NCBI RefSeq assembly: GCF_028009165.1
Contig: NC_079241.1
Location: forward strand, 310,001 to 374,000
From: Akanthomyces muscarius
Taxonomy: Eukaryota; Ascomycota; Sordariomycetes; Hypocreales; Cordycipitaceae
Direction: 5' to 3'
Length of the DNA stretch: 64,000 bases
Position numbers and translations under genes: made by a program. The notes beneath the pieces were generated by a model. That model was given only the letters and a program-made list of their open reading frames with translations, was not told the origin of the DNA and did not search any database. Below are positions 9,727 through 41,418 of this stretch, in pieces. How positions within the stretch are numbered: the first letter of the stretch is position 1; every line of letters begins with the position of its first letter.

Positions 9727-9860
9727 GACAACGTGTCCGAGTGGTTGTAAGTAAAGAATCTTGCTCCACCATGTGTGAAGCTTACTAACCCCATAACAGA
9801 AGGAGTGTGACTAGAAATCACATGCGTTCGCGCGCGTAGGTTCGAGTCCTGCCGTTGTCG
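9727..9860 (+). tRNA. tRNA-Ser (anticodon AGA) interrupted in the D-loop
   Basis: The acceptor arms GACAACG (9727-9733) and CGTTGTC (9853-9859) pair over all seven bases, followed by discriminator G at 9860. The anticodon stem TGTGA/TCACA (9806-9810, 9818-9822) closes the loop CTAGAAA (9811-9817), which reads AGA, so the tRNA decodes UCU and, by inosine, UCC. A long variable arm typical of serine tRNAs follows, then the T-arm GTAGG-TTCGAGT-CCTGC at 9836-9852. The Pol III A box is intact at 9734-9744 and the B box at 9839-9849. There is no intron at the usual 37/38 site. Instead 53 bases (9747-9799) sit in the D-loop. Removing them leaves an 81-nt tRNA with the standard serine sequence GTGGTT-AAGG. 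Confidence 0.92.
9747..9799 (+). other. Intron-like insert inside the tRNA D-loop
   Basis: The insert begins GTAAGT, contains TACTAAC at 9783-9789 with the branch A at 9788, and ends ACAG at 9799, 11 nt after the branch A. These are the strongest fungal forms of 5' splice site, branch site and 3' splice site, and 53 nt is a normal fungal intron length. Only the GT-AG boundaries restore the expected TTAAGG junction of the D-arm; shifting the ends by one base does not. tRNA introns of eukaryotic nuclei normally lie at position 37/38 and are cut by the tRNA splicing endonuclease, so this would need the spliceosome. Confidence 0.8.
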
Positions 9861-9866
9861 GTTGAA

Positions 9867-9872
9867 TTTTTT
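9867..9872 (+). terminator. Pol III terminator of the tRNA gene
   Basis: A run of six T on the sense strand, six bases after the discriminator base. Confidence 0.85.
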
Positions 9873-32941: not shown

Positions 32942-33994
32942 ATGCCCTCAGTCGAGAAAAAGAGAGCAAGAGACCGGCGCTCACAGCAAAGACTCCGGGA
33001 CAAAAAAGAAGCCCGGATAGCCGAGTTGGAGAAACTTGTCGCTCACTGCAAGGAAAACCACCTGGCATACAACACACAAGATGCATACTCGCGTGAAGTC
33101 AATGCACTACGACACCAGAATAAGTCCCTTCTCCAGCGACAGGATATGTTGAGGTCAATGGTCATGTCATGGCATGAGCCTGATCTCGACGTGTCACCAG
33201 AGTACAAGCCAGCGAGGGCGGCCTTCTCTGTACCCTTCAACGGCACAGAGAGCAACAACGCATCTCCCATCGCTACTCCAGACAAAGACGCTGCGACAAG
33301 CGACACACGTGTGTGGTCACAATCAACTGAACCGGAGTCTGTCCAGTCCAACAAACCTCCGGCATGGAGTCTCATCCCGCCCCACGACGACGATTTTTCC
33401 AATCTCGAGACAGCGGTTGGCTGTATCTGGTTTAACTACCCAGACATGATCAAAGACTGTCCGGATACACCACACTCACCGCTCGATCTCCTGTACGGCA
33501 GCAAGCTAAATCCACTGGCAGACATGATTTATAGCATGGGCAAACGACGGCCACTGCGGGAGCCTGAGCGCCTCGCGACAGGCTGGATTGCGTACCACCT
33601 GACGCGATGGATTTGCGCTCCGAGCCCAGCCACTTACGGCAATATGCCGCTCTTTTTGAGGCCGGTTGGGGAGCAACTAGAGCTGCCACACCCCGTGGCG
33701 CTGAATTTAGTGCCGTGGCCAAAGGTCCGGTGCGCGCTCATACGTCAGTGGCCAAAGTATCGAGACAACTATCCAAATTTCTTTGGACTCTTTGCGTGCT
33801 GTATACGAGTAAGATGGCCGTGGGGGGAGGATACACTGGAAAGAAGTTCAGATAATTCGCTGGTGATTAGGGAGGAGTTTTACAAGACTTTCACGAGTGA
33901 GAGTGGATGGACGATCACGAGGGAGTTTGTAGATGAGTATCCGGATATTTTCGCTGGTGTTCATCTAGACTCTATACTCTATAAGTTTATCTAA
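32942..33994 (+). CDS. bZIP transcription factor with DUF3425 domain
   Basis: Single exon, 350 residues. The basic region KKRARDRRSQQRLRDKKEAR occupies residues 6-25 and is followed by a short zipper (Leu29, Leu32 and later positions). Residues 150-350 match the DUF3425 layout, with the WSLIPP start, GWIAYHL, a PHPVALNLVPWPKVR core and a C-terminal WTITREF block. Proteins of this kind in hypocrealean and eurotialean fungi often sit beside transporters or metabolite genes, and bind DNA as dimers in the nucleus. This gene converges with the MFS exporter, their stops being only 113 bp apart, so regulation of the transporter is a reasonable guess, not shown by sequence. Confidence 0.9.
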   Translation: MPSVEKKRARDRRSQQRLRDKKEARIAELEKLVAHCKENHLAYNTQDAYSREVNALRHQNKSLLQRQDMLRSMVMSWHEPDLDVSPEYKPARAAFSVPFNGTESNNASPIATPDKDAATSDTRVWSQSTEPESVQSNKPPAWSLIPPHDDDFSNLETAVGCIWFNYPDMIKDCPDTPHSPLDLLYGSKLNPLADMIYSMGKRRPLREPERLATGWIAYHLTRWICAPSPATYGNMPLFLRPVGEQLELPHPVALNLVPWPKVRCALIRQWPKYRDNYPNFFGLFACCIRVRWPWGEDTLERSSDNSLVIREEFYKTFTSESGWTITREFVDEYPDIFAGVHLDSILYKFI

Positions 33995-37410: not shown

Positions 37411-39060
37411 ATGGAAGCCAACGTCAATAGAATCAACAGAAAGGCTGTCGAGGCTATCTCGAACACGCTCATCGGTGCTAGAGAAATCGAAATCAAGGAC
37501 AAGCAAGAAATTGGCTCACTAGTCTTTGCTCTCTTGGCTCTTGGCTCCAGTGCTGTCCCGGTCGCCTCGGGCTTTATATCCCATTTCTTCCTCTTCCTGG
37601 GTGAAGTGCTCTTCGGAATAAACATGAAGGATATCTGGGATGCGCTGCGCAAACCAATCGAGCACCTGATTGAACAAAAGATTGACGCATATCATCTGGA
37701 AGTTTTGGAAACTAAGATCAAAGGCTTCCAAACAAACATGCAGGCCTTTACAGGCGCTTGGCGTCTATGGCATAATGCGACCGCGGCCACCAGGGAGCAA
37801 GAGGCACAGAATCTTAAAGATCATTACACGGCGTTTCTCACCGTTTTGCGAGGCTCAATTCCCGAATTCCAGATCAACAGCTCAGCCGTGGCGGCCCTCC
37901 CTTGGTTTGTAATGGCCGCCAACATACACATCGGCTTGCTTGCCAACGGCATCAATTACGGTGCATCATGGGGCTACACAGAAGAGTTCATTGAAGGGAT
38001 ACTGCGGCCAGAATTCAACAGATTGACGGTCCCAAGCATGACGGGCTCTGATATGACGGCTCGCACCGTCATCTCGAACGAGTGCTCGTCTAACATCACA
38101 TCTGCGTGCCCGGGTGACTACGGCAAAAAGACCGAGTTAGAGCTCCTTTCAAACTCAATCCAAGCAGGCGAGGCTCATGGTTGGTCTGAAGAATTGCTCG
38201 ATACCTGGAGGACCGCCTACTCCGCGATGACCGTCCAACGGCGGGACCTCTTGGCCGAGCCCAAAGATGTGAAGCGGGACTATCGATACTACATCGAAAG
38301 CCAGTACATCCTGGGCCGCTCCAAGGTTCGGCCTTACCCGCCGAGGTCGTCGAAAGAGAAGCTCTACCGCTTCCTCGCGACGGCGAGGAAGTTTCGGGCT
38401 TACGCAGACTATGACGCCGAAATGATCGCGAACGTGCTCGCATATACCGAATTCTGGCCGTATCTTCTGAACGGTCACGACATGCCTGTCTCGGTCCTAA
38501 ATAGACTGGACCGCGAGATCTTCTCGGGACCGTACGGGAACTACACTGACAAGGTGACCGAGGGCATGTCGACGCTGCAAGTACCCTGGACCGATTCGAC
38601 GCTGCCGCCTGTGGTGCCGCGCGCTGCTGGAAACTTTACCTCGTTCATTGTACGCGCCGACGAGTTTGTTGAAGGCTTCCAGCAGAGATGGGGCGACGAT
38701 TGGTCCGTACAGTACGGCTCCGGGGATAGAGGTGTGGCCCACCAGGTTGACCTAGAGCCGGACGAGGTTGTGGAATGCATTCACATTGAATATGGCCAAA
38801 AGATTGGTTCGCTGCGCTTCACAACGAACAAGCGCGTGCACGGACCGTATGGCAAAGACCCATGGATACCGGGTTCCCTCGGCAGCCTTGATGACACCGT
38901 CAATCGCACTGGCTATATCATGTCAAGCGCTCACGTTGTCAAATGGCCAGGAGACAAATTCGCTGGCTGCGAGGGTATCTACTTTGGATTCCGGCCGTTG
39001 CTCATGAACGGAGACGGACCGGCCTATAATGCGTCAATTGAGCCAGTACGTACGGTCTAA
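37411..39060 (+). CDS. Delta-endotoxin N-domain protein with jacalin-like C-terminal domain
   Basis: Single exon, 549 residues, start in a good context (AAAATGG). Residues 45-215 fit the helical pore-forming domain I of Cry delta-endotoxins: a hydrophobic helix near 40-72, a Trp-containing helix after it (IWDALRKPI), a Gln/Phe-rich central helix, and the block around 160-190 (IPEF, then LPWFVMAANIH, then GASWG), which is the most conserved part of the family. The Cry domain II and III sheets are not recognisable. Instead residues 430-530 resemble a jacalin-like lectin: a repeated I-x-I-x-Y-G strand pattern and a GPYG turn. There is no signal peptide. Such genes in fungi are thought to come from bacteria and are rare outside insect- or nematode-associated species. 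Activity and target are unknown. Confidence 0.75.
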   Translation: MEANVNRINRKAVEAISNTLIGAREIEIKDKQEIGSLVFALLALGSSAVPVASGFISHFFLFLGEVLFGINMKDIWDALRKPIEHLIEQKIDAYHLEVLETKIKGFQTNMQAFTGAWRLWHNATAATREQEAQNLKDHYTAFLTVLRGSIPEFQINSSAVAALPWFVMAANIHIGLLANGINYGASWGYTEEFIEGILRPEFNRLTVPSMTGSDMTARTVISNECSSNITSACPGDYGKKTELELLSNSIQAGEAHGWSEELLDTWRTAYSAMTVQRRDLLAEPKDVKRDYRYYIESQYILGRSKVRPYPPRSSKEKLYRFLATARKFRAYADYDAEMIANVLAYTEFWPYLLNGHDMPVSVLNRLDREIFSGPYGNYTDKVTEGMSTLQVPWTDSTLPPVVPRAAGNFTSFIVRADEFVEGFQQRWGDDWSVQYGSGDRGVAHQVDLEPDEVVECIHIEYGQKIGSLRFTTNKRVHGPYGKDPWIPGSLGSLDDTVNRTGYIMSSAHVVKWPGDKFAGCEGIYFGFRPLLMNGDGPAYNASIEPVRTV

Positions 39061-39390: not shown

Positions 39391-39732
39391 TTAATGGCGA
39401 GATTGGCGACCCGTGCAGCATCACAGTGCGGCAAGAGAATCCCAGCCGGATCAGGTAACTTACGAGAGGCTACACACGGGGCCGGAGCCACGCTTTTGCC
39501 GTCCAAAGGCGTCTTCGGCAGCGAAGACCGCCATCCCGTACAGGGACTCCGTGTCATGGCGTGCTACAAATCAGCAACGAAGCCCAGCGTGGGAAGAACA
39601 CTGCTTATGAGACTCCGGTTAACTGCCAGGAAGAAAAACCCAAAGTCGCGTTATGGTAATTGTTTTCCTCGATGTGTATATATCACTACGACTTGTTCTT
39701 TACTGACCAACGTGACTCTGCAGTTGAGGATT

Positions 39733-41418
39733 ATGTTTTTCTGCACCTCGCCACTGCTGCTAATCGCGCTTGCATTCAACCTCTTACCGGCGCAGGCAGA
39801 GCTGGTACAGGTGCGGCTTCAGTCAGGCCCTACCGTAGACGGGCGGTCAGTCTCCGGTATCGAGACTTTTAACGGAATTCCATATGCGGTACCGCCGATT
39901 GGCTCTTTGCGTCTACGACCACCGCAACGACTGCCAAGCGACCAGATTGACCGAGTCGATGCTACGGGCACAGCTGCTGCTTGTCCGCAGCTCCTGCTTT
40001 CGCCGGCCGACGACACCATCGTCGGCCAAATTGGCGGTAAACTATTGCAAGCCCACTTTCTCAGCAACCTGACGGGCCAAGAAGACTGCCTAACGGTTTC
40101 TGTACAGCGCCCTGCCAACACCAAGGCGGACGCAAAGCTTCCTGTACTGTTTTGGATCTTTGGCGGGGGCTACGCATTTGGCACAACGACAACGTACGAT
40201 GCGTCTTCCATGGTTGCCGAGGGAGTGGCGAATAGTCAACCATTCATCTATGTCGCTGTCAACTATCGCTTAAATGGCTTTGGGTTTCTCCCTGGCGCCG
40301 AGGTGCTTGAAGAAGGCAGTGCTAACGTTGGCCTGCTCGATCAGCGCCTGGCGCTGGAGTGGGTTGCTGACAATATCGAGCAGCTTGGCGGCGACCCGGA
40401 CAAGGTCACCATTTGGGGCGAGTCGGCGGGCGCGCATTCGGTATTTTACCAAATGGCACTATTTGACGGAAATGCGACATACAAAGGCAAGCCGCTGTTT
40501 CGTGCGGGAATCCTCAACTCCGGCGTTGGGGTTCCAGCTGAGCCAATGGATGGTCCTAAAGGCCAAGCAGTCTACGACAAGGTCGTCGCAGAAGCTGGTT
40601 GCGGCAAAGCTGCCGATACTCTGGCCTGCCTCCGAAATTTGGACTATGAAACCTATTACAAAGCCGTCACGGAAAATTTCAATAGCGCAATCTCCTTCTA
40701 TGGAACCAAAATCTCGTTTTTGCCGCGGCCAGACGGCAGAACCCTACTGTTGAGTCCAGAAGAAGCAGCCGTCACTGGCCGCTATTTCGCGGTGCCGATC
40801 ATTGTGGGCAACCAAGAAGATGAGGGAACATTGTTTTCCCTTTTTCAGCGGAGCATTGAATCCGACGCTGAGCTAGTCGATTACTTTGCAGATAATTACT
40901 TTGCAAATCTCTCCAAGGCACATCTCACCGACTGGGTCACGTCCTATTCCGCCAGCAACATGGGAAGCCCCTTCCGAAGTCCGAAAATAAATGGGCTTTA
41001 CCCCATGTTCAAGCAGATTGCTGCCACCATTGGCGATCAATCGTTTATCCTAGCACGGCGGAAGTTTCTGGAGAGCCACAGTGCTGCATACCCTGACGTG
41101 CCTGCATGGTCATATCTCGCTTCCTACGCCCATTACTTGCCAATTCTCGGCACGACCCATGCAACTGACCTTGCACAGGTATTTTTCGGCTTGCCGCCAA
41201 CCTTTACGACCAAAAGTACGCGACAATACTATCGTAACTTCCTCTACAACCTGGACCCCAATTCAGGCGCAGATGACAATCTGTCCTGGCCGCTTTGGAG
41301 GGAAAACCGAACGCTTTTGTGGTTCGAGACGCTGTTCAAAAACAGCCATCTCACGGACGATTTCCGAAGCCGGCAGTATGCGGCACTTTTGAAGCTTGTG
41401 GACGGCGCACGGCAGTGA
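39733..41418 (+). CDS. Secreted type-B carboxylesterase/lipase
   Basis: 561 residues from ATG 39733; the same frame is open 129 codons upstream but the ATG at 39733 gives a clear signal peptide (residues 1-22, LLLIALAFNLLPAQA). Features of the alpha/beta-hydrolase fold: EDCL at 117-120, oxyanion loop GGG at 144-146, nucleophile elbow GESAG at 229-233 (Ser231), an acidic residue in GNQEDEG and a His in the GTTHATDL segment. No intron is needed. These enzymes hydrolyse short-chain esters or lipids outside the cell. The gene is bracketed by direct repeats A and B and follows the Cry-like gene. Confidence 0.9.
   Translation: MFFCTSPLLLIALAFNLLPAQAELVQVRLQSGPTVDGRSVSGIETFNGIPYAVPPIGSLRLRPPQRLPSDQIDRVDATGTAAACPQLLLSPADDTIVGQIGGKLLQAHFLSNLTGQEDCLTVSVQRPANTKADAKLPVLFWIFGGGYAFGTTTTYDASSMVAEGVANSQPFIYVAVNYRLNGFGFLPGAEVLEEGSANVGLLDQRLALEWVADNIEQLGGDPDKVTIWGESAGAHSVFYQMALFDGNATYKGKPLFRAGILNSGVGVPAEPMDGPKGQAVYDKVVAEAGCGKAADTLACLRNLDYETYYKAVTENFNSAISFYGTKISFLPRPDGRTLLLSPEEAAVTGRYFAVPIIVGNQEDEGTLFSLFQRSIESDAELVDYFADNYFANLSKAHLTDWVTSYSASNMGSPFRSPKINGLYPMFKQIAATIGDQSFILARRKFLESHSAAYPDVPAWSYLASYAHYLPILGTTHATDLAQVFFGLPPTFTTKSTRQYYRNFLYNLDPNSGADDNLSWPLWRENRTLLWFETLFKNSHLTDDFRSRQYAALLKLVDGARQ

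Follow-up and report, generated by a model that had tools for sequence, protein, structure and literature searches.

The tRNA-Ser(AGA) gene at 9727–9860 of the window (the whole stretch of 64,000 nucleotides analysed here) is broken in its D-loop by a 53-nt insert that looks like an mRNA intron, and 14 other tRNA genes of the same genome carry inserts of this kind. Very probably these are U2-type spliceosomal introns in working tRNA genes transcribed by RNA polymerase III (Pol III), with decoding of serine and tryptophan codons dependent on the spliceosome. The DNA argues strongly for spliceosomal introns in tRNA genes; Pol III transcription, catalysis by the spliceosome, function of the products and the dependence of serine and tryptophan decoding are what we infer from it. 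The fungus probably needs its mRNA-splicing machinery to make serine, tryptophan and a few other tRNAs.

The original prediction described a tRNA-Ser(AGA) gene with a 53-nt D-loop insert that begins GTAAGT, carries TACTAAC 11 nt before its end and finishes ACAG, and inspection of the sequence agrees with it on each of these points (Table 1). The acceptor stem is paired at 7 of 7 positions (GACAACG/CGTTGTC) and followed by discriminator base G73, the anticodon stem is paired at 5 of 5 (TGTGA/TCACA) around the loop CTAGAAA, and the T stem has one G-U pair. The features expected of a functional nuclear tRNA-Ser(AGA) – cloverleaf, long variable arm, anticodon AGA, G73, A and B boxes, and a T run – come together only once the insert is removed.

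Table 1. Parts of the interrupted tRNA-Ser(AGA) gene, in window coordinates.
Feature	Position	Strand	Basis
5' exon: acceptor 5' strand, D-stem 5' strand, D-loop up to 20a	9727–9746	+	sequence; position number by hand
Presumed A box, TGTCCGAGTGG, entirely upstream (5') of the insert	9734–9744	+	sequence inspection; A-box consensus
53-nt GT-AG insert in the D-loop, between 20a and 21	9747–9799	+	sequence, ARAGORN, other Ser(AGA) copies
GTAAGT, 5' splice-site-like	9747–9752	+	sequence
GCTCCAC, common to the three Ser(AGA) inserts	9763–9769	+	pairwise insert comparison
TACTAAC, branch-site-like; branch A at 9788, 11 nt from the insert end	9783–9789	+	sequence
CAG, 3' splice-site-like	9797–9799	+	sequence; last letters of the insert are ACAG
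3' exon: D-stem 3' strand, anticodon arm (AGA), long variable arm, T arm, acceptor 3' strand, G73	9800–9860	+	sequence, ARAGORN
B box, GGTTCGAGTCC	9839–9849	+	pattern search
T6 run, Pol III terminator-like	9867–9872	+	sequence

With the insert left in, ARAGORN finds no tRNA anywhere in the window; the spliced form that the prediction envisaged is called Ser(AGA), with a score of 114.8. No Rfam family reaches its gathering score in the raw window, tRNA and self-splicing introns alike, and no self-splicing group I or II intron core was found there by Rfam. A length of 53 nt is too short for a self-splicing intron of either group. With the threshold loosened, Rfam places a tRNA-Sec match over 9791–9860 (17.5 bits, gathering score 47), and a second sub-threshold match near the gene is to a lncRNA family. 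The claim that the junction could not be shifted by even one base stands for the conserved D-loop letters and fails structurally: same-length cuts slid by −2 to +2 have an equal or higher ARAGORN score. Counting the GT-AG cut itself, 19 of 527 nearby deletions score at least as high as it does, and it is the sole GT..AG among them. The insert is judged to be beyond chance because two other Ser(AGA) copies have one at the same site and because a blind scan, described below, yields 15 such genes.

The source assembly (G000; 36,193,312 bases in 12 contigs) was searched for uninterrupted serine genes. A DNA search with the Ser(AGA) gene matched three places, with the insert in all three, and a pattern of anticodon loop plus B box matched the same three loci and nothing else. 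Joined Ser(AGA) exons matched only the exon pieces of the same three genes. A pattern for an uninterrupted gene (D-arm plus B box) had four matches in the assembly, three Tyr genes and one Leu gene, with no serine gene among them. Allowing a longer gap gave 20 matches: three Ser(AGA), three Ser(GCT), one Ser(CGA) and 13 copies of two repeats. A GTAAG-CTAA-B-box pattern gave five: the three Ser(AGA) genes, Ser(TGA), and a locus (L073) that could not be established as a tRNA gene.

Ser(CGA) and Ser(TGA) have an insert at the D-loop site used in Ser(AGA) and a short 37/38 intron besides. The insert in the three Ser(GCT) genes splits the anticodon at 35/36 (CTGC/GTACGT...CTAACAGCCTCTCAG/TAA, slashes marking the junctions). 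In each of these genes, no other deletion among the 527 tried nearby equals or exceeds the score of the GT-AG one while giving anticodon GCT. Reading the three by eye as Leu(CAG) was dropped on the evidence of CTGC/TAA, G73 and the anticodon GCT. Abundant intact copies, or an insert that was unconserved junk, would have counted against the original prediction; both were sought in the source assembly, and neither was found. No serine gene without a GT-AG insert was found there at all, in an incomplete census with one degenerate locus set aside. The D-loop insert of Ser(AGA), searched as an exact pattern, had no match in prokaryote genomes or viral contigs, as expected for a fungal feature.

Three other elements met in these searches may be recorded. 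The degenerate locus (L142, C2:3815600–3815950, minus strand) resembles the 3' half of a tRNA-Ser, has no matching 5' half visible and is perhaps a pseudogene; at 22.4 bits it is under the cut-off, its ARAGORN call is a wrap-around one, and it was excluded from the serine count. The GAGTGGTGCTAGATC repeat has nine copies among the longer-gap D-arm/B-box matches, on C1, C2, C3 (two), C4, C5 (two), C6 and C11 (L049, L055, L059–L064 and L067). Most copies lie near the end of a contig or ~9.3 kb from its start, and the repeat is probably subtelomeric. The second repeat, with A-box-like and B-box-like motifs (GAGTGGTTTACC...GGTTCGAATCC), has four copies in the same search, on C1 (two), C2 and C6 (L051, L054, L058 and L066).

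The wider tally of tRNA genes required an ARAGORN score of at least 105 and a span of at most 170, with known inserts removed. It held 96 distinct genes, one Thr gene being counted twice, and so comes to 95 tRNA genes in an incomplete census, in which ARAGORN misnames some genes with 37/38 introns. The census covered 73 regions picked by eye, for tRNA genes with the B boxes of the search patterns. Three pattern searches gave 252, 103 and 47 matches, against 87, 37 and 30 in controls, the first two being used among the matches listed. Of 781 candidates in the Rfam tRNA search, 63 were scored, yielding 54 matches; a single Trp gene is the only one of the 15 insert genes among these.

15 of the 95 tallied genes have GT-AG inserts, in seven isoacceptor groups and at six tRNA positions. 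The positions, all numbered by hand, are 16/18, 18/19, 20a/21, 31/32, 35/36 and 47/48; none is 37/38. Inserts in tRNAs other than Ser(AGA), which the original prediction had left for a genome search, are thus present at five further positions. All eight serine genes are interrupted (AGA three times, CGA and TGA in the D-loop; GCT three times at 35/36), as are both Trp genes in the variable loop, the one Thr(TGT) gene and the one Arg(TCT) gene. One of three Pro(AGG) genes and two of four Leu(AAG) genes have a D-loop insert.

The two Trp genes lie in tandem, each with an insert at 47/48 and a 37/38 intron, and BLAST with the Trp gene found these two places only, both interrupted. The insert is at 35/36 in Thr(TGT), at 31/32 in Arg(TCT), at 16/18 in the Pro(AGG) gene (L097) and at 18/19 in the two Leu(AAG) genes (L122 and L123). 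A 37/38 intron accompanies it in Ser(CGA), Ser(TGA), Leu(AAG) and Pro(AGG) according to ARAGORN, and in Trp and Arg(TCT) by eye. The Trp, Thr, Arg, Pro and Leu insert genes were found through a CTAAY-AG-B-box pattern or by reading fetched regions. This pattern had 32 matches against 34 in a backward control. With no excess in the count itself, it is tRNA structure that carries the argument. Two other loci have introns at the ordinary place. L087 (C2:1940700–1940950, minus strand) is by eye an Ala(CGC) gene with C for T at 33 and a 37/38 intron, and is Arg(GCG) according to ARAGORN. L111 (C4:2650260–2650510, plus strand) has an Ala(TGC) call and a 63-nt intron, the longest such in the tally.

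Removal of the insert restores a tRNA with the right anticodon in 14 of the 15 genes (ARAGORN, 37/38 introns allowed). The fifteenth, Trp_2, has the right anticodon once its 37/38 intron is also taken out; Trp_1 is called Trp(CCA) with just the GT-AG insert out. With both introns out, each Trp gene scores 116.5 and Arg(TCT) 122.4, all with the expected anticodon; the drawn cloverleaf of Trp_1 has an A-C mismatch at 31:39. Left unspliced, most of the insert genes give no ARAGORN call or the wrong tRNA.

In the blind scan, every GT..YTRAY..AG of 42–125 nt (469 deletions) was deleted from 140 distinct B-box stretches of the fetched loci, and cases giving a clearly better ARAGORN gene were kept. 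The 17 resulting rows correspond exactly to the 15 genes, since B-box-like sites occur twice in each Trp gene. When the end letters were changed in four controls, 2, 2, 7 and 2 rows improved; none lay outside these 15 genes, and the cuts were slid or mostly poorer. The best 5' border is off by 2–4 nt from the assigned one in three of the 15 genes (both Trp and Pro). When 527 deletions were compared in each gene, the number scoring equal or better was 2 in Thr and 3 in Arg, each with one GT..AG; 19–26 in the serine D-loop genes; 34 and 37 in Leu; 24 in Pro, with two GT..AG; and 162 in Trp_1, with three GT..AG. The D-loop and variable-loop junctions are not fixed by tRNA structure alone.

All 15 inserts start with GT and end with AG. 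13 of them have the fungal 5' site GTRNGT, the exceptions being Thr (GTTAGT) and Leu_2 (GTAAGC), and 13 end in YAG, with AAG in the same two genes; the splice sites of Thr and Leu_2 are weak. The branch motif is CTAAC in 13 genes, CTAAT in one and TTAAC in one (Leu_2), and the branch A is 10–12 nt from the insert end in all 15. Inserts are 51–60 nt long in 14 genes and 107 nt in Pro. The inserts have the marks of U2-type introns: GT and AG ends, GTRNGT, CTRAY at 6–36 nt, and the length of mRNA introns. They agree with the fungal ranges given in section 3.2 of PMC5832005 (GTRWGT, RCTRAC, branch 6–36 nt from the acceptor).

The mRNA introns of this genome look much the same. Coding-supported introns, with open frames on both sides, fill 12 rows (11 distinct, because L013 and L014 overlap), compared with 6, 4, 4 and 4 rows in four controls; on this showing, at least a third of the 12 could be there by chance. 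The 5' motif of the first control is not an exact reverse. The introns are 49–77 nt long with a branch distance of 10–15 nt in all but one. The raw count of GT..YTRAC..AG in the window is 63, with no excess over ten shuffles (55–81). A stricter count over 190 kb gave 31 against a mean of 19.3, and 19 against 4.5 at a branch distance of 10–15 nt, but these counts include the tRNA inserts, which make up 7 of the 31 and 6 of the 19, and one intron that was entered twice.

Three protein-coding regions of the window may be mentioned here. A 549-aa open frame at 37411–39060 (plus strand) has delta-endotoxin N-terminal and jacalin-like lectin domains (Pfam), a Cry-like protein in a fungus. A DUF3425 protein is encoded at 32942–33994 (plus strand). 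A carboxylesterase is encoded in a 674-aa frame at 39394–41418 (plus strand); among the best 120 of 2398 matches, the closest is 97% identical, and the named relatives are Aphanocladium and Beauveria at 68%, then Cordyceps, Akanthomyces and Lecanicillium, several of them called lipase. This one protein places the fungus in the Hypocreales, near Cordycipitaceae.

The original prediction also held that known nuclear tRNA introns sit at 37/38. This is generally so, and exceptions exist: algal nucleomorphs and Cyanidioschyzon have non-canonical introns, according to a 2014 review (PMC4090602). The present inserts could likewise be non-canonical introns that only happen to look like those of mRNAs; the tRNA endonuclease would cut them out and tRNA ligase would seal the exons, as happens in Cyanidioschyzon and archaea. 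Positions of the 20/21 type are known in archaea and D-arm introns in nucleomorphs (PMC4090602), and, as several insert genes also have 37/38 introns of the ordinary kind, the fungus presumably has the endonuclease. We nevertheless consider this explanation very unlikely. Bulge-helix-bulge structures at the junctions are no better than in shuffled introns in all 15 genes (0.19–1.0 of shuffles as good, in a simplified geometric test). The explanation would leave the GT, the YTAAY at 10–12 nt and the AG of all 15 inserts, and their retention in paralogues, without a cause. A cut at 37/38 in Ser(GCT) would yield the anticodon GCG.

Spliceosomes usually act on Pol II transcripts, and the inserts might be removed by the spliceosome from Pol II transcripts crossing the tRNA genes rather than from Pol III ones. 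There is little chance of this, just as little as for the endonuclease. The B boxes, the downstream T runs and the intact A box of the window gene fit Pol III: B boxes are kept and T runs of at least four lie downstream of all 15 genes. TTTT is absent from all 15 inserts, which goes in the expected direction and is not significant (expected in 1.7 of 15, P=0.14). U6 is a Pol III transcript, and in fission yeast it is reportedly spliced by the pre-mRNA machinery, so Pol II would not be required for spliceosomal splicing.

If the inserts are indeed spliceosomal introns of Pol III transcripts, Pol III would use the A and B boxes inside the Ser(AGA) gene and stop at the T6 run. The nuclear spliceosome would then excise the GT-AG intron from the primary transcript in the manner of an mRNA intron and join the exons. 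The tRNA endonuclease would take out the ordinary 37/38 intron in those insert genes that have one, and end trimming, CCA addition and modification would give the mature tRNA. Since all the Ser and Trp genes found carry GT-AG inserts, decoding of both amino acids would depend on the spliceosome. Folded precursors have no consistent trend in splice-site exposure. For Ser(AGA)_1 and _2, the fold leaves little of the 5' site free (unpaired 0.17, where shuffled versions give 0.47 and 0.51) and keeps most of the branch site open; the spliceosome may therefore have to act before or against the fold.

Paralogous insert genes retain their splice signals, fully in Trp and Ser(GCT) and mostly in Leu, while the intron interior drifts. 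The Trp pair matches at 81 of 84 exon positions and 14 of 14 signal positions, with an interior similarity of 0.41 (shuffled mean 0.46); Ser(GCT)_1 and _2 at 79 of 81 and 14 of 14, with 0.51 (shuffled 0.51); and the Leu pair at 95 of 97 and 10 of 14, with 0.50 (shuffled 0.51), the exon strings including the 37/38 intron for some genes. Closer pairs have more similar interiors: 0.84 for Ser(GCT)_2 and _3, 0.90 for Ser(CGA) and Ser(TGA), and 0.62–0.81 among Ser(AGA). Stems also differ by compensating changes. An acceptor pair is C-G in Ser(AGA)_1 and G-C in _2 and _3, and the variable arm of Ser(AGA)_2 is GGG/CCC where the other copies have GCG/CGC.

The original prediction allowed for two cases, spliceosome-dependent maturation of a Pol III tRNA or inactivation of this copy, and the genome evidence strongly supports the former, with splicing itself deduced: no insert-free serine gene was found, inserts occur at five further positions and splice signals are kept in paralogues. 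That the interrupted genes are pseudogenes or unneeded, other tRNA genes reading Ser and Trp, is the least credible alternative and scarcely to be entertained: the census is incomplete (by-eye regions, among the matches listed, in an assembly that may lack genes) and Pro(AGG) and Leu(AAG) do have copies without a GT-AG insert, but this incomplete census holds no insert-free Ser or Trp gene to make the others dispensable, and the compensating stem changes, the kept B boxes and T runs, and the kept splice signals against a drifting interior all oppose it.

The Ser(AGA) inserts share GCTCCAC, and the Ser(CGA) and Ser(TGA) inserts have the related GCYCCGCCAC (GCYCCGCCACCAT). This likeness suggests common descent of the two sets, on weak statistics (0.032 and 0.130 of shuffles as good, for two pairs). 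Introners were considered as a source; interiors shared beyond the signals occur only in the Ser-UCN inserts and Ser(GCT)_2 and _3 (11 pairs, one of them across amino acids). Sites filled in some genes are empty in others. Two Pro(AGG) genes (L092 and L132) read CTAGT-GGTATG without an insert, where L097 has CTAGT/107 nt/GGTATG, and on C10 (L133) the D-loop site that holds the insert of L122 and L123 is empty in two Leu(AAG) genes.

Several independent gains across tRNA genes are likely, given six positions in seven groups. We think it quite probable that spliceosomal introns colonised Pol III tRNA genes repeatedly in the hypocrealean lineage, at these six positions and in these seven groups, some of them recently to judge from the empty-site paralogues, with all Ser and Trp decoding passing through the spliceosome and several tRNAs needing both machines. 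If so, translation capacity would be coupled to pre-mRNA splicing, and intron gain could be observed on genes without a reading frame. Eukaryotic tRNA introns are usually assigned to the tRNA endonuclease and to no other machine. Here tRNA production could not do without a second one, if the reading holds, and loss or inhibition of the spliceosome would directly halt translation of Ser and Trp codons. The substrates of the spliceosome would widen beyond mRNA, U6 and U3 to tRNA. The genome offers a natural system for intron gain, with short genes of known structure and filled and empty paralogues side by side. Programs that find tRNA genes may miss or misname those interrupted by GT-AG introns.

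A literature search including exact phrases, its scope leaving aside preprints and most subscription papers, found, among the papers listed, no precedent for tRNA genes with spliceosomal introns; one may have been published elsewhere. The parts available of PMC8216456 and PMC6461891 have nothing on such introns, and the word stem 'spliceosom' is absent from the text of PMC4090602. According to that review, most eukaryotic tRNA introns are canonical, with nucleomorphs and Cyanidioschyzon excepted. As of 2017, frequent interruption by an intron was known for no small structured RNAs other than U3 and U6, according to PMC5832005.

Several known systems resemble the one described here in part. Canonical 37/38 tRNA introns occur in the same genome, some beside a GT-AG insert, and differ from the inserts in position, signals and removing machine. 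The tRNA introns of Cyanidioschyzon merolae, nucleomorphs and archaea are alike in occupying the D arm, anticodon arm and other sites away from 37/38, with several per gene; those of archaea and C. merolae depend on a bulge-helix-bulge (PMC4090602), whereas none is apparent here by the simplified test. The mechanism for nucleomorph tRNA introns is not known according to the same review, which gives 3–24 nt for Guillardia; the present inserts, in contrast, are 51–107 nt long and have mRNA-type splice signals. The introns of fungal U6 snRNA and U3 snoRNA are alike in their GT-AG ends, RCTRAC-type branch and location in short structured non-coding RNA genes; their hosts are snRNA and snoRNA genes, whereas here they are tRNA genes. 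U3 introns are present in some paralogues and absent from others in eight genomes (PMC5832005, section 3.2). The short mRNA introns of filamentous ascomycetes, as seen in this genome, match the inserts in 5' site, branch motif, branch-to-AG distance and length, and differ in interrupting protein-coding genes, which Pol II transcribes. Introns of this kind are already known; the tRNA host is new.
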